A stretch of DNA of 64,000 nt from positions 744,001 to 808,000 of the forward strand of contig CANMWO010000001.1 of NCBI GenBank assembly GCA_947501695.1, written 5' to 3'. Of the stretch, positions 50,750 through 59,627 are shown piece by piece. The DNA comes from an uncultured Sphingomonadaceae bacterium (GTDB lineage: Bacteria > Pseudomonadota > Alphaproteobacteria > Sphingomonadales > Sphingomonadaceae). A program made the translations under genes and the position numbers. The number at the start of each line of letters is the position of its first letter. The stretch's first letter is position 1. Under the pieces are notes generated by a model that searched no databases, had not been told where the DNA came from, and saw nothing but the letters and a program-made list of their open reading frames with translations.

Positions 50750-51868
50750 ATGGTGGATGCTGTCGGACCCAATGCGAAACTCTATCTGAAACCCGTTGGG
50801 TTTCTCGACAGTCCACAATATTTTGACGATCAAAATAATCGCTTAAACAATAGCTTACTTTGGTTTTCTCAAGTCGAATATTCGATATTTGAGGAAGGCA
50901 AACCGGCAATTAGAAACCTGGTTCCGGTGGAACTATGGGATAAGATTGCATCGCGATTGCCCGAATCCTTGCAAGAACGGGCTGTCGCGTTGTTTGCAAA
51001 TCTGACCAAAACCCACGCGCCACTGCTATGCGGAGAGCGGGTACTTCGCTTTGATCAACCCCATGTCATGGGTATCCTCAATATGACGCCGGATAGTTTT
51101 TCTGACGGTGGTAAACATGATGGTGACCCGCAAATCGCAGCGGATGTTGGCTTTGATATGGCGACGGCCGGTGCATCAATTCTCGACATCGGTGGAGAGT
51201 CCACACGGCCTGGTGCGGACACTGTCTGGGAGGGCGACGAGATTAAACGCGTCGTACCTGTACTTGAAAAGCTCACCCAATGTGGCGCTGTCCTATCCAT
51301 CGATACGCGCAAGGCGGCAGTAATGGAGGCAGCGATTGCAGCGGGCGCGCACCTTATCAATGACGTGTCGGCCTTGTTACATGACAACCGGTCTTTGGAA
51401 GTTGCTGGCGTCTCCGGCAGACCGGTCGTGCTTATGCATGCACCATCCAGCGGTAAAGACCCGCATAAGGGTGAAGGTTACGGCGATGTTGTGACCGATA
51501 CGTTCAATTGGCTGGAACAACGCATTGCCGATGTTGTGGAAGCTGGTTTTGAGCGTGAAAAAATAATCGTCGATCCCGGCTTGGGCTTCGGCAAGTCGCT
51601 TTCCGACAATTTGGCGCTAATGAATAATATTGCTCTATTCCATGCACTGGGCCAACCGTTGCTTATTGGCGCAAGCCGAAAACGGATGATTGGTGCGCTG
51701 TCGAAAGAAGCAACAGTCGACCAAAGGCTAGGCGGCTCAATAGCTTTCGCGCACCACGCGATCCAGCAAGGGGCACAGATAGTGCGGGTGCACGATGTAC
51801 CCGAAACCGTGCAAGCGGCGCAGGTGTGGCGCGGAATGAGGGATGCCGGGGTCACGGCGCGGGTTTAG
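50750..51868 (+). CDS. folP: dihydropteroate synthase with N-terminal extension
   Basis: Condenses p-aminobenzoate with hydroxymethyl-dihydropterin pyrophosphate in folate synthesis. 372 residues: the catalytic barrel begins near residue 103 with MGILNMTPDSFSDGG, then GASILDIGGESTRPGA, SIDTRKAAV, LINDVSAL, KIIVDPGLGFGKS and GASRKRMIG. The preceding about 100 residues are an extra domain not found in short DHPS enzymes, of unknown role. A GGAG-type site lies before ATG 50750 and the gene is close behind ccrM. Confidence 0.96.
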   Translation: MVDAVGPNAKLYLKPVGFLDSPQYFDDQNNRLNNSLLWFSQVEYSIFEEGKPAIRNLVPVELWDKIASRLPESLQERAVALFANLTKTHAPLLCGERVLRFDQPHVMGILNMTPDSFSDGGKHDGDPQIAADVGFDMATAGASILDIGGESTRPGADTVWEGDEIKRVVPVLEKLTQCGAVLSIDTRKAAVMEAAIAAGAHLINDVSALLHDNRSLEVAGVSGRPVVLMHAPSSGKDPHKGEGYGDVVTDTFNWLEQRIADVVEAGFEREKIIVDPGLGFGKSLSDNLALMNNIALFHALGQPLLIGASRKRMIGALSKEATVDQRLGGSIAFAHHAIQQGAQIVRVHDVPETVQAAQVWRGMRDAGVTARV

Positions 51869-51921
51869 CAATGATACTAGCAGCTAGCTTACGTCTGCTT
51901 CATCCCGAGCGGACGTTTGGA

Positions 51922-52419
51922 CTAATTGGTTGGAAGACTTCCTTCATAGACAGAAATATTATCAATTACTCTTACATCATAGTGATTTCGGTAAGCCGAG
52001 TGCCCCTGAAGGTAATTTGTCATAAGATTTGCTTTGAATGAGATTTTGAACGCTTGTGGCTCTTTAGTATAAGGATCGATGCCTAATTGCTCATAGATCA
52101 TAACTTCAGATAGTTCGGGAACGACCAATGGTCGTGAATGTTGTTTTGGGTTGATTACTGTCCAATTGGAATCGGTCAAATAGAACTCGTTTAACTCGAA
52201 ACCTCGACGCCATATGCCTTGGTATTCAAGCATGGGGCCCGTCCTCATACAATTCAGGCTGTCTGACGGCTTAATAAGCGGCAGACCCATTTCTCCATCC
52301 CATGTTAATCCCTCGCATTGAGAATGGTTCAAGAACCACGAGAGCAGTGCAAAACCAATTATTGCTCCCAATAGTAGCAGTGAAAAATATTTTGCTACTG
52401 ATTTAGCTACATTGAACAT
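51922..52419 (-). CDS. hypothetical membrane-anchored protein
   Basis: A 165-residue protein with one N-terminal transmembrane helix (YFSLLLLGAIIGFALLSWFL) and an extracytoplasmic domain containing two cysteines (SQCEGLTWDGEMGLPLIKPSD, SLNCMRTG) that could form a disulfide. The coding sequence is AT-richer than ccrM and folP next to it, suggesting a different origin. No family recognised and no functional clue from the neighbours. Confidence 0.65.
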   Translation of the reverse strand: MFNVAKSVAKYFSLLLLGAIIGFALLSWFLNHSQCEGLTWDGEMGLPLIKPSDSLNCMRTGPMLEYQGIWRRGFELNEFYLTDSNWTVINPKQHSRPLVVPELSEVMIYEQLGIDPYTKEPQAFKISFKANLMTNYLQGHSAYRNHYDVRVIDNISVYEGSLPTN

Positions 52420-52510
52420 CCGATTTTTCCTCTATTTGCGCCCAGCTTTTTATAGAATTCTAGAGCTACTAGATTTCTCCAACAAGCGCGATACTCACCG
52501 TTTGAGGGGT

Positions 52511-52576
52511 ATGTCCGCTTTTGCGCCCAAAGCGGACATTAGCGCGGTGTCCGTTTTATCCCGAAAGCGGACGTTA
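52511..52576. repeat. interspersed double-hairpin repeat, copy A
   Basis: First hairpin: ATGTCCGCTTT and AAAGCGGACAT (52511-52539) with loop TGCGCCC. Second hairpin: GTCCGTTT / AAAGCGGAC around TATCCCG, ending at 52573. The same two-hairpin unit recurs at 59562-59627 and, decayed, at 57817; partial pieces lie at 58754 and 58950. The right end of this copy supplies the TAA stop (52574-52576) of the glycerate kinase gene on the minus strand. Confidence 0.8.
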
Positions 52577-53890
52577 CGGCTGATCAACGAGAAGCACTCT
52601 TAAATCATTGACGTTGGTGCCCGAAGGTCCGGTCATCAGGAGAGCATCAGCCTCTTTGAAGGCGAGATAGCTATTGTCGTATTCGAGCAAATGGCGGGCC
52701 TGCTTGGCGCCGGCCATAAGATCCAAGATACCGGGCCATAAAAATGCTCCGGCATTGTCTTCCGATCCATCTATGCCATCGCTATCAGCAGCAAAGCCGC
52801 TGATCCCTGGTTCCCCTTCCAGCGCTAACGCGCAGGCAAGCAAATAAGCAGTACAACGACCGCCCCGTCCCCCCCGATTGCGAACCGTTACGGTGGCTTC
52901 ACCTCCGGAAATCAGAGCAACCTTGCGGCCTTCCGCCTTGAGTTTCAGCGCTTGCTCAGCATGGGCATGACCCAGCGCCAAAGCATCTCCTTCCAACGCA
53001 TCGCCGAGCAGAACCGGTTCATAGCCCAAAGCTTGAGACGCCTCTGCTGCAGCCGCACACATATCAGCCGGTCGCGCGCATAGCTCTGCGGTCGCGCGTT
53101 GCATTTTTGGATCACCAAATTTCGGCGTTTCCAGCGCGCCTGTCTCGAGCATTGATAGAATCGCTGGCGGCAGTGTGATTTGATATTTCTCGATAATCGC
53201 TAGCGATTCTGCGCAAGTTGAACTGTCGGCAACGGTCGGTCCGGAACCAATGAGTGCGATATCATCACCGGGAATATCGGAAATCGCGATCATATGGGTT
53301 GTAGCTGGCCACGCTCTAGCGGCCAATCGCCCTCCCTTTATCTCGGAGAGATGTTTGCGGACGATATTCATTTCACTTATCGGAGCACCGGAGTGGAGCA
53401 ATGATCGGGTAACGGCCTGTTTTTCCACAAGGGATATCCCGTCAGCAGGCGCCGGAAGAAGCGCGCTGGCACCTCCAGACATCAGAACAAACAAGAGATC
53501 GTCTTTTCCTAGCCCCTCAACCGCCGCCAATACCATTTGCGTTGCTTGCAACCCCGCGGCATCCGGCACGGGATGGGATGCCTCGACAATGTGCAAATTA
53601 TCTGGCGCGAACCCTGGCTGAGCATAGCCTTGTCGCGTGACGATCAGGCCTTCAGCGTCTTTTGGCAGGCGAGTATGAATCGCAGCGGCCATCTGTGTTG
53701 CTGCCTTGCCAACCGAAAGCAAATAGGTCCGCCCCGGAACCTCTGGCCATTCGACATTGCGCATAGCATTTTCTGGCAGAGCGGGTTGCAGTGCCTTCAG
53801 ATAAAGGTCTTTTAAAAAAGCTTTTATTGAATCGGGATTTGCTGTTTTATGCACGGCACAATAAAGGCCCGATTGTCCTATCGGCGTCAA
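52574..53890 (-). CDS. glycerate 2-kinase (DUF4147/MOFRL family)
   Basis: ATP-dependent kinase phosphorylating D-glycerate. 438 residues: the N-terminal glycerate kinase domain has MSGGASALLPAP, KHLSEIKGGRLAA, AISDIPGDDIALIGSGPT and the C-terminal MOFRL domain has SGGEATVTVRNRGGRGGR and AADSDGIDGSEDNAGAFL. The start is uncertain: TTG 53890 or GTG 53854 are the options, since no ATG precedes the conserved region. Divergent from the glucosylglycerate phosphorylase gene, whose product releases glycerate, so it likely recycles glycerate to phosphoglycerate. Confidence 0.92.
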   Translation of the reverse strand: MTPIGQSGLYCAVHKTANPDSIKAFLKDLYLKALQPALPENAMRNVEWPEVPGRTYLLSVGKAATQMAAAIHTRLPKDAEGLIVTRQGYAQPGFAPDNLHIVEASHPVPDAAGLQATQMVLAAVEGLGKDDLLFVLMSGGASALLPAPADGISLVEKQAVTRSLLHSGAPISEMNIVRKHLSEIKGGRLAARAWPATTHMIAISDIPGDDIALIGSGPTVADSSTCAESLAIIEKYQITLPPAILSMLETGALETPKFGDPKMQRATAELCARPADMCAAAAEASQALGYEPVLLGDALEGDALALGHAHAEQALKLKAEGRKVALISGGEATVTVRNRGGRGGRCTAYLLACALALEGEPGISGFAADSDGIDGSEDNAGAFLWPGILDLMAGAKQARHLLEYDNSYLAFKEADALLMTGPSGTNVNDLRVLLVDQP

Positions 53891-53918
53891 GCGGCTTTTC
53901 GGAGTGACGGACCACCAT

Positions 53919-55682
53919 ATGAATGATCGCGCTACTATCGACCATCTGTTGCACCGCCTGACTGCGCAACTGAAGCTGCTTTATCCCGAAAATGATTGCG
54001 ATACGCTGGCGCAGCGTATCATAGACCTGTTTTGGTCCGACCAGGACAAGATGATAAAGCGGCAGGATATCGCCGACAAACATCTTTGGGATGAGAGCGA
54101 TATTGCGCTTATCACCTATGGGAGTACGATCCAGTCAGAAGGGGAGCATAGCTTAAAAACGCTGCATCGCTTTTTGAAAAAGCATATCGGCCAAGCCATT
54201 GGCGCGGTGCATATTTTACCGTTTTTCCCTTATAGTTCAGACGATGGCTTTTCAGTGATCGACTATCTTCAGGTCGATGAAAATCTGGGTGATTGGTCGG
54301 ACATAGAGGCCATTGCCGGGGATTATCGGTTAATGGGTGACCTTGTGATCAATCACGGGTCGAGCAAATCCCAATGGTTCCAGCAATTTCTGTCCGACGA
54401 AGCACCGGGCAAGGATTATTATTATACAGCCGATCCGGCCGCCGATTTGGGGCAGGTTGTTCGTCCACGGTCTCACCCTTTGCTAACGGCCTTTCGCACG
54501 GCGGCGGGCGATCGCCATGTCTGGAGCACATTTAGTCCCGATCAGCTTGATTTCGATTTTACCAACCCGGATGTGTTGCTTGAATTTATTAAAATCATCG
54601 CCGCCTATATCGATCACGGCGTTCGGATTTTTCGACTGGATGCGGTGGCATTTCTCTGGAAAAAAGCCGGTACGGCGTCGATCAATCTTGATGAGACCCA
54701 TGAGATCATCCGGTTGCTAAGAACATTGATGGATCATCATGCCGAAACGCTGATCATCATTACCGAAACCAATATCCCCAATCATGAAAATTTGACCTAT
54801 TTCGGCAATCAAAATGAAGCGCATGTCATCTATAATTTTTCATTGCCGCCGCTCCTTGTCCACGCCTTGTTGACCGGTAATGCGCTCTATCTGAAACGCT
54901 TGACGCGCAGCAATCCGCCGGCGCTGACCGGTTGCACCTATCTAAATTTCACCGCCAGTCATGATGGCATCGGATTGCGTCCGACCGAGGGTGTGTTACC
55001 GCAAGGCGAAGTCGATCAGATGATGGCGACGATTCAAGGCTTTGGCGGAAGACTCTCCATGCGACGCGGACCGGGCGGTACGGAAAAGCCTTATGAGATG
55101 AATATCTCTTATTTCGAGGCCATGCAGGGCACGTTGGAAGGGCCGGACGCGCATCAAATCGATCGTTTCATGGCCGCAATGGCGATCATGCTTGCGCTGG
55201 AAGGTATTCCTGCGTTCTATATTCATAGCCTGCTCGCAACGCCGAATGGATATGAGGAGGTCAACCGCACTGGCCACAACCGATCAATCAACCGCCGTCA
55301 GCTGGATTACGATGAGATAAACGGGAAACTCGCTGATCCAGAAACGGTCGAGGCGCAGGTTTTTACGCGCCTTCTAAACCTCATCGACATTCGAAAAAAG
55401 CAGCCTGCTTTCCATCCTAATGCGGTGCAGTTTACGTTGGCATTACCCGAGGGGTTATTCGGTATCTGGCGACAAAGCCAGGATAGAAAGCAAAGTATCT
55501 TTGCCGTCACCAATGTAACCAAAGAAATAAAATCGCTATCGCTTGCAGATATAAATTTGATTGCAGGAGACCTGTGGTGGGATTTAATTTCAGGCCAATC
55601 CATCACTGATATAGAAGGGGGCTTTTCATTGTCACCCTATCAAACCGTTTGGATCAGCAATGTGAAACAGAATTCCGCCTAA
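53919..55682 (+). CDS. GH13_18 sugar phosphorylase, probable glucosylglycerate phosphorylase
   Basis: A 587-residue glycoside hydrolase family 13 subfamily 18 enzyme (sucrose phosphorylase relatives). Catalytic residues are visible: nucleophile Asp in FRLDAVAFLWK, acid/base Glu in IITETNIPNHE and the transition-state Asp in TASHDGIGLRPTEG. Sucrose phosphorylase is the default name, but the neighbouring gpgS, phosphatase and glycerate kinase make phosphorolysis of glucosylglycerate to glucose-1-phosphate and glycerate the better call. ATG 53919 is used; GTG 53904 is possible. The stop interlocks with that of gpgS. Confidence 0.85.
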   Translation: MNDRATIDHLLHRLTAQLKLLYPENDCDTLAQRIIDLFWSDQDKMIKRQDIADKHLWDESDIALITYGSTIQSEGEHSLKTLHRFLKKHIGQAIGAVHILPFFPYSSDDGFSVIDYLQVDENLGDWSDIEAIAGDYRLMGDLVINHGSSKSQWFQQFLSDEAPGKDYYYTADPAADLGQVVRPRSHPLLTAFRTAAGDRHVWSTFSPDQLDFDFTNPDVLLEFIKIIAAYIDHGVRIFRLDAVAFLWKKAGTASINLDETHEIIRLLRTLMDHHAETLIIITETNIPNHENLTYFGNQNEAHVIYNFSLPPLLVHALLTGNALYLKRLTRSNPPALTGCTYLNFTASHDGIGLRPTEGVLPQGEVDQMMATIQGFGGRLSMRRGPGGTEKPYEMNISYFEAMQGTLEGPDAHQIDRFMAAMAIMLALEGIPAFYIHSLLATPNGYEEVNRTGHNRSINRRQLDYDEINGKLADPETVEAQVFTRLLNLIDIRKKQPAFHPNAVQFTLALPEGLFGIWRQSQDRKQSIFAVTNVTKEIKSLSLADINLIAGDLWWDLISGQSITDIEGGFSLSPYQTVWISNVKQNSA

Positions 55683-56893
55683 TCCTGACTATCCAATCGC
55701 ACCGCTTCCTGAAACCGGTCGGTAAAATCCGGGATGGCGCTATTGATCCGGTTCCAGTTGGCCATAAAGGGCGTTTCATTGGGCGATTCCAGAAACACTT
55801 CACCCGCCGTCATTATATTTTGCGCGAACAGCTCCACCGTCGTTTCTTCTTCGTGCCGGTCCAGTGTGAGACCGTTCATTACGGCGTCATTATAGAAGGT
55901 CTCGATCCGGTCCAACGCGATCCGGAAATAGGTCGCCTTGAGCGTACGAAACGTACCAGCCGAAAAAACCTGCCCATCGGTCGCGAGTTTGCGGAAGAGG
56001 GATTTGGTAATGTCGATACTCATTTTCGACAGACCACCGTTGGGATTGTCATGCGAAACCGATTGATGCTTGTGATCATAATTGTCCGCAATCTCGACCT
56101 GACATATCGACTGGGTCGAATGGTTCCTCCAAACTTCTGACAAGACACCGACTTCCAGACCCCAGTCGGATGGGATGCGGATGTTTTTGACAACCTGCCG
56201 CCCCATCGCAAATTCACCAGCAAGCGCGTAACGGAAGCTGTTCAGGTAGGTAATATAGTCATTGGGCTCACAGACTTTTTTTAGCGCAGCCAGCAACGGC
56301 CCGATCAATAATCGCACGACGCGACCGTTAAATTTCTCTTCGGTTGTTCGCGCATAATAGCCTTTGGAAAAGACGTAGGGGAAGGTGGGATTGGCGACCG
56401 GATACATAAGCCTTGCCAGCATCGCTCGATCATAGGTCAGGATATCGCAATCATGGAGACCGACCATCTGTGCATCGGTCGCTGACAGAAAATAACCGAA
56501 ACAGAACCAGACGTTACGGCCTTTTCCCGGTTGCGCTGGTGACAGGCCGCGTTCTTTCAATTCTTCATCCAGCGCCGTCAATCGCGGACCACTATTCCAC
56601 AAGATATGATGGCGTTGTGGCAGGCGCGAAAAATAGTGCTTCGCATGTTCAAATTGCTCTTTGTCCGCGCGGTCCAGACCGATGATTATATCGTCCAGAT
56701 AAGGCACTTCACATAGTTCATCGACTATATTTTCCAGCGCGGGGCCCTCCAGCTCCGAAAACAAACTGGGCAGGACCAAAGCCATCGGATTGGCTTCTCG
56801 AAAGCCCATCAAATCGGCCTCCAGCGATTCGACCGAGCGATTGGACAAATTGTGAAGAGTGGAAATAGTACCGTTTTGATGAAAATCAGCCAT
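55679..56893 (-). CDS. gpgS: glucosyl-3-phosphoglycerate synthase
   Basis: GT81 glycosyltransferase that joins glucose from NDP-glucose to 3-phosphoglycerate, first step of glucosylglycerate synthesis. 404 residues; the metal-binding DxD motif is in VGLHDCDILTYDRAML, and GKGRNVWFCFGYFL and SDWGLEVGVLSEVWRN are further conserved stretches. ATG 56893 with AGGG five bases upstream is preferred to the frame start at 56920. The phosphatase gene lies just upstream on the same strand, 33 bases away. Confidence 0.92.
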   Translation of the reverse strand: MADFHQNGTISTLHNLSNRSVESLEADLMGFREANPMALVLPSLFSELEGPALENIVDELCEVPYLDDIIIGLDRADKEQFEHAKHYFSRLPQRHHILWNSGPRLTALDEELKERGLSPAQPGKGRNVWFCFGYFLSATDAQMVGLHDCDILTYDRAMLARLMYPVANPTFPYVFSKGYYARTTEEKFNGRVVRLLIGPLLAALKKVCEPNDYITYLNSFRYALAGEFAMGRQVVKNIRIPSDWGLEVGVLSEVWRNHSTQSICQVEIADNYDHKHQSVSHDNPNGGLSKMSIDITKSLFRKLATDGQVFSAGTFRTLKATYFRIALDRIETFYNDAVMNGLTLDRHEEETTVELFAQNIMTAGEVFLESPNETPFMANWNRINSAIPDFTDRFQEAVRLDSQD

Positions 56894-56926
56894 GATTGCC
56901 CTTGTTTTGCGGAGCAACAAGCCTAA

Positions 56927-57763
56927 TCAGCTTTCCGACAGGTTTAAACCCAATTCTGCCAAAATTTCTTGAATAGCGATGACCCAGCCCTCTGGACCGG
57001 GAACGGGGGCCGTGCGGACATGGGGCTTGGCCGTTTCAATTGTCACACCATCGGGATTGGGCATGATGACACCGAAATCCGCCGCCTCGATCATCGCAAG
57101 ATCATTCGGGCCGTCACCAAGAGCAATGGAGATGATTTGAAAACCCGGTTTTCTGTCAACAAAAGCGCTTATAATCTTGGCCATCGCATGCTCTTTGGTT
57201 GCCTGACCCGTAAGATGATAAAACCGTCCGCCGCGTTGAACCTGAATATTCTCTTCGATCAGTATCTCCTGCACAGCCGACAATTCTGCATCTGATCCCG
57301 ACCACAAGAAAGGTTCCGTCGCTTCACGGTCTTGAGCCCGCCGGGCATCGTCAACTACGAGGCCGGTTACGGCCATGACGTCTTCGACAGACATATCAGC
57401 AAAGCCGGTAATATGATGACGCAAAGACTGCGGGAGTTTCGCGACTTGCTCTAATATCGCACGGTATCTGATCCCTAACATGATACTGTGTGAGCGATCA
57501 TCGTCGAACAGAGGAGAGCTTCCACACGCATGGATCACAGACCCATTTTCCGTGACGCTTAAATTATTCTGGAGCGGTATCGATTTCCGCAACCACAGCA
57601 ATTCGGATTGCGTTTTGCTGGTTACCGGAATGATATCCGCCGTACCTTGGTCGTAGAGTCGTTTGATCAAACCGGCAGCAGGTTTGGCTGAATAGTTGTG
57701 ATGATCCAATAAAGTTCCATCGAGATCGGTAAAAATCAAAATGTGGTTGGATGGTTTTGCCAT
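56927..57763 (-). CDS. HAD-IIB phosphatase, probable glucosyl-3-phosphoglycerate phosphatase
   Basis: A 278-residue HAD hydrolase of the mannosyl/glucosyl-3-phosphoglycerate phosphatase type. Motif I is IFTDLDGTLLDHHNYS (nucleophile Asp and general-acid Asp), motif II VTSKTQSELL and motif IV LGDGPNDLAMIEAADFGVIM. It should dephosphorylate glucosyl-3-phosphoglycerate to glucosylglycerate. It is first in the two-gene unit with gpgS. ATG 57763 puts the catalytic motif where expected. Confidence 0.9.
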   Translation of the reverse strand: MAKPSNHILIFTDLDGTLLDHHNYSAKPAAGLIKRLYDQGTADIIPVTSKTQSELLWLRKSIPLQNNLSVTENGSVIHACGSSPLFDDDRSHSIMLGIRYRAILEQVAKLPQSLRHHITGFADMSVEDVMAVTGLVVDDARRAQDREATEPFLWSGSDAELSAVQEILIEENIQVQRGGRFYHLTGQATKEHAMAKIISAFVDRKPGFQIISIALGDGPNDLAMIEAADFGVIMPNPDGVTIETAKPHVRTAPVPGPEGWVIAIQEILAELGLNLSES

Positions 57764-57816
57764 AATCACGCGACAGCATAACATTGCAGCCGCAGCCCGA
57801 AAACGGTAATTCGACT

Positions 57817-57866
57817 AATGTCCGCTTTTGCGCCTATAACGAACTTTAGCATCATGTCCGAAAATT
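57817..57866. repeat. interspersed repeat, decayed copy B
   Basis: Begins AATGTCCGCTTTTGCGCC, identical to the start of the copies at 52511 and nearly so to 59562, but the following arm is altered (TATAACGAACTTTAGCAT) so the first hairpin no longer pairs; a second ATGTCCGAAAA follows. Lies between the phosphatase promoter and the 3' end of the alpha/beta hydrolase gene. Confidence 0.65.
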
Positions 57867-57884
57867 TGAGGCGTGCCGTTTGGC

Positions 57885-58700
57885 TCATGATAATTTAGCA
57901 AATGCCGAAGCCACGATTTCCGGATGAGTCATCATTCCCATTCGTCCAACCGGCACATCAATCCAGTCCCAGCCCGGTTGTTTGGCAGGCCCCCACATTT
58001 TAATTGAGGATGGCGCAAACTCCTGCTTCGTGCCGCGCAAATAGGTTCTGGGCAAATCTCTCCATCCGCCATTTTTCAAAACCAGTTCATCTGTCCATGC
58101 ATCGGCGGGATGAGGTGTTAAGAGCTTTCGCAGTTTAGCTCGCAGCTTGGGGTATTCATTACCGACAAGCATTTTTATTGGGTAATCGTCCCAAAATACC
58201 ATTTGATACCCATTTAAAAACCTAGAACGGCGCTCTCTGAACTTTTTGGTTTCCGATCCATCTGCATTCATTTCGACGGCAGTCATTCTTCCTTCATGCG
58301 GAATCAGCGCTTCAAAAAATCCTATATGCCTGATCTTTTCTTTTCGAACATCCGCGGCACCGGTAATAGCCATGCCAGAAAAGCTGTGCCCGATAAGGAT
58401 GACATCACTCAATTCTTCATAGTCAATCACGCCTACGATATCATTTATGTGCGTTCCCAGTCCAATATCCGGATTTGTAAGATGATGTCGTTCGCCAACA
58501 CCAGTCAATGTCGGGGTGAATACTCTATGACCCATTTTACGGAGTGCTTGGGCGACATCCTGCCATATCCAGCCACCGAGCCACGTGCCGTGAACAAGGA
58601 TAAAAGTTTTTGATTCTGAAGGCGCAACAACAGCGTTGACTAACGAACTGGCGGCAAAAGGCGTAACAGCAGCCAAGTTCAGAAAGTTGCGTCGCTCCAT
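57885..58700 (-). CDS. Tat-exported alpha/beta hydrolase
   Basis: A 271-residue alpha/beta-fold hydrolase. The N terminus MERRNFLNLAAVTPFAASS matches a twin-arginine signal (RRNFL followed by a hydrophobic core), so it is probably exported folded. Oxyanion motif HGTWLGGWIW, nucleophile serine in IGHSFSGMA and the C-terminal catalytic histidine probably in MMTHPEIVA. Resembles plant-type esterase/hydroxynitrile lyase relatives in bacteria; substrate unknown. Confidence 0.88.
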   Translation of the reverse strand: MERRNFLNLAAVTPFAASSLVNAVVAPSESKTFILVHGTWLGGWIWQDVAQALRKMGHRVFTPTLTGVGERHHLTNPDIGLGTHINDIVGVIDYEELSDVILIGHSFSGMAITGAADVRKEKIRHIGFFEALIPHEGRMTAVEMNADGSETKKFRERRSRFLNGYQMVFWDDYPIKMLVGNEYPKLRAKLRKLLTPHPADAWTDELVLKNGGWRDLPRTYLRGTKQEFAPSSIKMWGPAKQPGWDWIDVPVGRMGMMTHPEIVASAFAKLS

Positions 58701-58777
58701 ATCACATTACCTTTGTTTGCTATGACTAAGAGAGTGAGAAGAACCCTTTTTGACAAAGCGGACGTTACCACACAACC

Positions 58778-58813
58778 AAAAAAGCCCCGTCGACTTGAGG
58801 GGTCGGACGGGGC
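58778..58813 (-). terminator. rho-independent terminator, minus strand
   Basis: GCCCCGTC-GAC (58784-58794) pairs with GTC-GGACGGGGC (58802-58813, one bulge) around a short loop; on the minus strand six U residues follow (A-run 58778-58783). It ends leftward transcription from the broken gene at 58976-59491, or a short RNA from the 160-base gap between. In that gap GCTAT...ATAGC (about 58831-58850) can form another small hairpin. The rest of 58701-58975 holds only two fragments of the interspersed repeat. Confidence 0.75.
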
Positions 58814-58975
58814 GTTGGAACGGTGGGTCGCTATAACCATTCCAATAGCGCGGATAGCTTGACGCACTGAGTCTGCATTGTACGAAATGGACTCTTCGGT
58901 TTGGTTAGAACAAAAATTGCGACTTGGAATTGGATAGCCCTGTGGCAACTTTATCCCGAACGCGGATATAAGCTA

Positions 58976-59561: not shown

Positions 59562-59627
59562 AATGTCCCCTTTTGCGCCCAAAGCGGACACTGGCGTTGT
59601 GCCCGTTTCATCCCGAAACCGGGCATT
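59562..59627. repeat. interspersed double-hairpin repeat, copy C
   Basis: AATGTCCCCTTTTGCGCCCAAAGCGGACACT followed by GTGCCCGTTTCATCCCGAAACCGGGCATT: the same order and loops (TGCGCCC, CATCCCG) as copy A, with compensated or near-compensated stem changes such as CCCGTTT/AAACCGGG. It lies in the 286-base gap between the broken gene and the FadJ-like gene, which otherwise shows no gene. Confidence 0.8.

Follow-up and report, generated by a model that had tools for sequence, protein, structure and literature searches.

Two questions are raised by a block of four genes at 52574-57763 of the window, the 64,000-nucleotide stretch analysed here (contig C1, 744001-808000, of a 3.6-Mb genome): do these genes together make and recycle the compatible solute glucosylglycerate (GGA), and how did they come to stand at this site? 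The closest named relatives are Parasphingorhabdus, Sphingorhabdus and uncultured Sphingomonadaceae. The best explanation, which we regard as highly probable from comparison of sequences, is that the locus is a complete cassette for GGA synthesis and turnover, in this species group a compact, repeat-edged unit that occupies varied chromosomal sites and probably passed between species recently.

Each of the four genes has an undamaged reading frame. The first (52574..53854, minus strand) encodes a class II (DUF4147/MOFRL) D-glycerate kinase with solved relatives 2b8n and 1x3l. It is divergent from ggaP (53919..55682, plus strand), the gene for a GH13_18 protein assigned as a glucosylglycerate phosphorylase (GGaP). 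Convergent with ggaP on the minus strand are gpgS (55679..56920), for a GT81-type glucosyl-3-phosphoglycerate synthase, and then gpgP (56927..57763), for a HAD-IIB phosphatase of the mannosyl-3-phosphoglycerate phosphatase family with solved relatives 1xvi and 3ztw. Reading frames, Pfam and NCBIfam matches and solved relatives confirm the four genes, families, coordinates and geometry that a preliminary description of this locus had given.

Gene order, edges and probable movement of the cassette

Our comparison with relatives draws on a census of 80 loci, kept from 156 that passed in one scan of named genomes and found by similarity to the window. The order seen in the window, a divergent kinase gene, ggaP and convergent gpgS-gpgP, is kept in 17 of these other loci (L023 among them, with just a 165-base kinase remnant). 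The arrangement is therefore not due to chance. Co-directional gpgP-gpgS-ggaP is found in 49 loci, ggaP with opposite-strand gpgS-gpgP and no kinase in six, and a kinase co-directional with ggaP in another six; one locus has gpgS-gpgP next to a divergent ggaP, and one has ggaP alone. In a survey of 298 family genomes from 96 genera (GGaP called at E up to 1e-50, GpgS at E up to 1e-30), GGaP occurs in 6 genomes of two genera, and GpgS in the identical 6.

The cassette is sharply bounded. When the window was compared by blastn with 18 cassette loci, matches longer than 150 bases, the threshold here and in the folP comparison below, were confined to 52511-57858, with none in the flanks (up to about 8 kb per side, some shorter). 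The match is split in two in L028 and restricted to ggaP and gpgS in L026 and L027. L014 and L015 are 95.9% identical over a 5282-base block and share no further match; in the remaining near pairs, the only similarity beyond the block is short (about 30-60 bases) and falls on the repeat described next. Crossed tblastx hits hinted that the cassette is inverted in L015 relative to L029, but blastn did not confirm this.

A direct repeat of 43 bases, itself containing a palindrome, marks both edges of the window cassette. The left edge (52511..52573) holds two palindromic repeats, of the TGCGCCC-loop and ATCCCG-loop types, and the right edge (57818..57860) a degenerate copy, direct repeat D1, with 79% identity to 52511-52553. 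The palindrome consists of GTCCGCTTT, a loop of 6-7 bases and AAAGCGGAC; with exact arms it has 22 copies in the window genome and is present in 14 of 32 genus genomes, against 0 for the reversed control pattern. Within the window the repeat family clusters at 52.5-59.6 kb (52511-52573, 57818-57860, 58755 and 59563-59592). We surveyed half-sites, allowing at most one mismatch, in 17 cassettes (the window and 16 others, with L023 and L026 excluded). Both ends have a half-site no more than 130 bases away in the window, L013, L014, L015 and L029; only the left end does in L019 and L020, and neither end in the other 10. The background, taken from four of these loci, is about 3.3% for a stretch of 130 bases. 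In the four both-end-repeat cassettes with long flanks, the repeats are the sole common flanking DNA.

Transposase-free cassettes bounded by short repeats are known, for example mobile insertion cassettes and REP/MITE-edged units. The window cassette resembles these in having no recombinase of its own, dispersed palindromic repeats as edges and varied sites, but differs in having no identified transposase partner or target-site duplication. Among the window's reading frames and their Pfam and NCBIfam matches, no transposase or recombinase gene stands between the repeats, just the four metabolic genes. No target-site duplication was seen by eye at the cassette ends, and no empty site was found for comparison.

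At four-fold degenerate sites the identity of the cassette genes to G326 is 0.73-0.86, against a backbone mean of 0.47 (28 genes, maximum 0.77); the corresponding values are 0.68-0.73 against 0.43 for G329 (33 genes, maximum 0.61) and 0.66-0.73 against 0.41 for G153 (28 genes, maximum 0.61). This raised identity indicates recent transfer between species, and the 5.3-kb cassette has probably moved in this way. Values for G325 and G306 are not raised: the cassette, represented by the kinase and part of ggaP only, gives 0.38-0.48, with backbone means of 0.55 (35 genes) and 0.46 (30 genes). One of the 35 G325 backbone values belongs to a paralogue (31% identity, the right-flank acyl-CoA ligase), and the sets may contain further paralogues. 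All backbone genes were sampled from a single region, 6-51.87 kb of the window, where blastn blocks keep their order, with gaps, in five genomes; in these, 39-45 kb to the left of the cassette is collinear. In a run with four backbone genes and nine genomes, the cassette is again clearly raised in G326, G329 and G153. There ggaP in G324 and G089, and gpgS in G089, lie slightly above the backbone, their other cassette genes do not, and nothing is raised in G325, G306, G309 or G310; in five of these six genomes, only the kinase and ggaP were measured.

An alternative, which we consider unlikely, is that the cassette was inherited vertically, that its flanks are unshared because gene order has been lost locally, and that the repeats adjoin it by chance. 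In favour of this, homology with the window ends at the end of folP (51850-51870) in all 14 genus genomes compared, none of which continues as the window does, although the window's nearest half-site is more than 600 bases from that break. In addition, 12 of the 17 surveyed cassettes lack repeats at both ends together. Against it stand the four-fold-site identities of the cassette, raised above the backbone in G326, G329 and G153 though not in G325 and G306, and the low half-site background. Recent passage between species is the reading we prefer.

The right edge suggests a further exchange. G243 belongs to the genus but lacks the cassette genes; it is 94.4% identical to the window over 57815-58966, a stretch that holds an alpha/beta hydrolase gene. 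Two exchanged modules seem to meet at the right-edge repeat, because the match to G243 begins there. A broader rule can be proposed, in which the palindromic repeat family ends exchangeable modules in Parasphingorhabdus-like bacteria, a solute cycle without a recombinase travels in this manner and the hydrolase gene is a second module joined at the repeat; we put this forward tentatively, as possible but rather less than probable. At the 14 folP loci, L161 has half-sites at most 50 bases from the break and the others have none within 800 bases beyond it. No right-flank match longer than 150 bases was found in the 17-18 kb folP stretches of the 14 genomes, and no clean empty site.

Specificity of the phosphorylase and identity of the solute

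The preliminary description had taken the specificity of the phosphorylase from context alone. The protein matches the Pfam Alpha-amylase domain (E 7.1e-23), and its solved relatives include sucrose and glucosylglycerol phosphorylases. Two published signatures separate GGaP from sucrose phosphorylase: a (T/S)ETN motif around the acid/base residue, at the tip of strand 5, and a glutamate in loop A (PMC7178133). Both are present here, as TETN at residues 287-290 and as Glu398, rather than glutamine, in loop A (numbered from GTG 53904). Glu398 aligns to a glutamine in the glucosylglycerol phosphorylase 7xdq, and the loop reads GGTEKPYEMN and lacks the sucrose phosphorylase motif N(L/V)D(I/L/V)YQ. 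The residues mutated in the Meiothermus silvanus enzyme, Asn275 and Glu383 (PMC7178133), fit as the equivalents of Asn290 and Glu398, at a constant offset of 15 positions. Because both signatures are present, the GH13_18 protein is very probably a GGaP and not a sucrose phosphorylase.

These residues hardly vary among the 80 loci. The nucleophile, the acid/base residue (E288), the transition-state aspartate, Asn290 and Glu398 are each invariant in all 80; position 287 is threonine in 74, serine in five and cysteine in one, and position 289 is threonine in 79 and asparagine in one. Since the loci were chosen by similarity to the window, this invariance is a sign of constraint and not an independent test. 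The predicted specificity, once drawn from the neighbourhood, is now backed by published signatures that are invariant or nearly so.

That the enzyme is instead a sucrose, sucrose-6-phosphate or glucosylglycerol phosphorylase merely adjoining GGA synthesis genes appears very improbable. Such a reading could appeal to the top NCBIfam model, sucrose phosphorylase, though this scores below its cut-off (194.2 of 334.4 bits), and to the nearest solved chains noted above. The discriminating residues speak for GGaP, with PYE here at the position of YQ in sucrose phosphorylases, and a gpgS match is also present in 79 of the 80 loci.

These two marks have been read in the same way elsewhere. In the marine alphaproteobacterium Rhodoalgimonas zhirmunskyi, which has GH13_18 and GT81 genes, a GGaP was predicted from a PYELN loop and TETN (PMC10608839); unlike at the present locus, a kinase and a cassette go unmentioned in the available portion of that account. 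The signature residues are likewise shared with the GGaP loci (GH13_18, EC 2.4.1.352) of M. silvanus, Spirochaeta thermophila and E. coli, where a kinase, GpgS or GpgP gene is frequent company (PMC7178133). In the window all four genes stand together, with the kinase gene reading away from ggaP, and ggaP and gpgS reading towards each other.

The gpgS product has no Pfam match at 0.001; it matches GpgS_Meth (NF040724, NCBIfam) with an E-value of 1.7e-105 and 353 of the 700 bits of the curated cut-off, and solved GpgS relatives from E 1.1e-6. The gpgP product passes the cut-off of HAD-SF-IIB-MPGP (TIGR01486; 201 bits, cut-off 164.75). A solute other than GGA, such as mannosylglycerate, is suggested by the model names and solved relatives of gpgP, which are mannosyl-3-phosphoglycerate phosphatases, but is highly unlikely given a transferase that matches GpgS models and solved GpgS and a phosphorylase whose signatures indicate a glucoside.

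The glycerate kinase and the proposed cycle

The kinase has the DUF4147 (E 1.6e-75, 254 bits) and MOFRL (E 2.5e-27, 95.6 bits) domains common to class II glycerate kinases (PMC2063504), both above the Pfam cut-off. Within this class the cassette kinases form their own clade, and the window kinase falls below NCBIfam equivalog cut-offs. Unlinked sphingomonad kinases are 37-47% identical to the cassette kinase, save one 116-residue fragment at 50%. A tree of 26 kinases, which includes 8 of the 18 divergent-type ones (the window and seven others), does not support a single origin of all linked kinases: placing the 14 sampled cassette kinases in one clade is rejected (p-AU 0.00017), whereas the same constraint without L089 is not (p 0.0854). 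At least two recruitments of a kinase, or one replacement, are therefore indicated.

A dedicated kinase had been singled out in the preliminary description as the unusual part of the locus. The evidence does not support this, as GGaPs are "frequently accompanied" by genes for glycerate kinase, GpgS or GpgP, and an adjacent glycerate kinase helped to derive GGaP specificity in the first place (PMC7178133). Of the 80 loci, 22 have an undamaged class II kinase gene next to ggaP and one more has a remnant. In the window genome, searched for classes I and II, the kinase protein returned itself alone, and neither a second class II nor any class I glycerate kinase was found. Eight genomes without an intact linked kinase were checked, of which six have a class II enzyme elsewhere (one of these also class I).

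Several loci show other states. The kinase is reduced to a remnant in L023 (7758-7922) and in L134, and the L023 genome has an unlinked class II kinase (L097). A GntP-family permease gene stands upstream in the kinase-less cassette of L026 (5346-6809; record labelled Kordiimonas), and the genome of that locus yielded no glycerate kinase of either class I or class II. In Gilvimarinus, a gluconokinase-like gene directly upstream of ggaP (L082 7294-7929 and L085 7282-7881, the two loci checked out of these and L084 and L088) was considered as a substitute glycerate kinase. We dropped this candidate because both genes match GntK/IdnK-type gluconokinase above cut-off, and L082 adds an adjoining GntR-type regulator.

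Judged by their families, GpgS would join NDP-glucose and 3-phosphoglycerate, and GpgP would dephosphorylate the product, yielding GGA. Once the need for GGA has passed, GGaP would, as its published signature residues strongly suggest, use phosphate to release glucose-1-phosphate and D-glycerate. The kinase would then phosphorylate D-glycerate, most likely to 2-phosphoglycerate, which mutase and enolase would carry into central metabolism. Every class II enzyme that had been characterised by 2007 appears to yield 2-phosphoglycerate (PMC2063504). Synthesis (the make arm, gpgP-gpgS) and breakdown (the salvage arm, the kinase and ggaP, which diverge from a single short start region) appear to be encoded in distinct transcription units, an anatomy that would allow the arms to be switched separately.

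The four genes had been described as a closed loop. The analysis supports a locus for GGA synthesis plus phosphorolysis, but the four genes alone do not close the loop: as characterised class II kinases seem to give 2-phosphoglycerate, a phosphoglycerate mutase is needed as well, and so is a route from glucose-1-phosphate to NDP-glucose through a nucleotidyltransferase encoded outside the four genes. GGA turnover would be carbon-neutral yet costs ATP and NTP.

Several observations count against the overall explanation of a complete, repeat-edged and recently exchanged cassette. Both GpgS and the kinase score under NCBIfam equivalog cut-offs. The kinase family is present in 33 of the 298 family genomes, including all 6 with GGaP, and 27 of these 33 are without GGaP, so that by itself the kinase counts for little as evidence. 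At 57 of the 80 GGaP loci no class II kinase is seen alongside (some stretches being short), and two of the eight checked genomes have neither class I nor class II; a linked kinase is therefore not required. As to the edges, just five of 17 cassettes have repeats at both ends and all five are related, so that they represent about one event and the repeats cannot explain the older spread. The folP break without a half-site in the window also tells against a general repeat rule.

The divergent start region and significance of the cassette

The kinase probably starts at GTG 53854 rather than the listed TTG 53890, because ATG stands at that position in L027 and L028 and the longer frame of L030 has a stop at residue 6. 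For ggaP, ATG 53919 is a possible start and GTG 53904 the alternative. The start of gpgS may be ATG 56893: of five homologues, three begin to align only at residue 10-12, one at residue 6 and one at residue 1.

Between the divergent genes lies a candidate shared promoter or operator, a 75-bp element at 53815..53889 that covers the divergent starts and the first kinase codons. In the long kinase frame, codon identity (same residue) reaches 0.93-0.98 in the best 15-codon windows within codons 1-25, against a gene mean of 0.47 (standard deviation 0.11); this was counted on 11 of 16 cassette kinases, with three near-identical and two distant ones excluded and L015, L023 and L026 not entered. Codons 1-12 of that frame are non-coding if the start is GTG 53854. 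Mean column conservation is 0.93 over 53812-53889, against 0.78 in the first 120 aligned kinase coding bases and 0.83 in early ggaP; the alignment holds 18 of 19 loci (L134, with its damaged kinase, excluded), and conservation was counted on 15 (without L118-L120). Of 32 genomes in the genus, 19 contain a single match to the segment 53800-53930, always between ggaP and the kinase or a kinase remnant.

The cassette contains no regulator gene. An RNA element in the divergent region was considered, but no Rfam match up to E 1 lies there, and we do not claim an RNA structure because the halves of the inverted repeat change one-sidedly in L127-L133, with no compensating change. A promoter scan of 52300-58000 gave 12 sites against 6.1 expected, none within 53800-53930.

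The enzymology of this locus is ordinary and its kind has been described, since the association of kinase, GpgS and GpgP with GGaP is in print (PMC7178133). What merits further attention is the compact, repeat-edged and probably exchanged cassette together with its conserved start region; among the titles and abstracts listed in a literature search, with most subscription papers outside its scope, none gives an account of this cassette or repeat.

According to the 2020 review, the role of GGaP in living cells is experimentally unconfirmed (PMC7178133). The cassette is also present in the records of two cultivable Parasphingorhabdus, P. flavimaris SW-151 (L018) and P. marina DSM 22363 (L028). 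With make and salvage arms in one cassette and in a cultivable group, the locus offers a clean system in which to test that role, and such testing is aided by the one glycerate kinase (classes I and II) found in the window genome and by a genus member, G243, that lacks the cassette. If the repeats do end a travelling unit, the locus would illustrate the exchange of a whole solute cycle in one small block.

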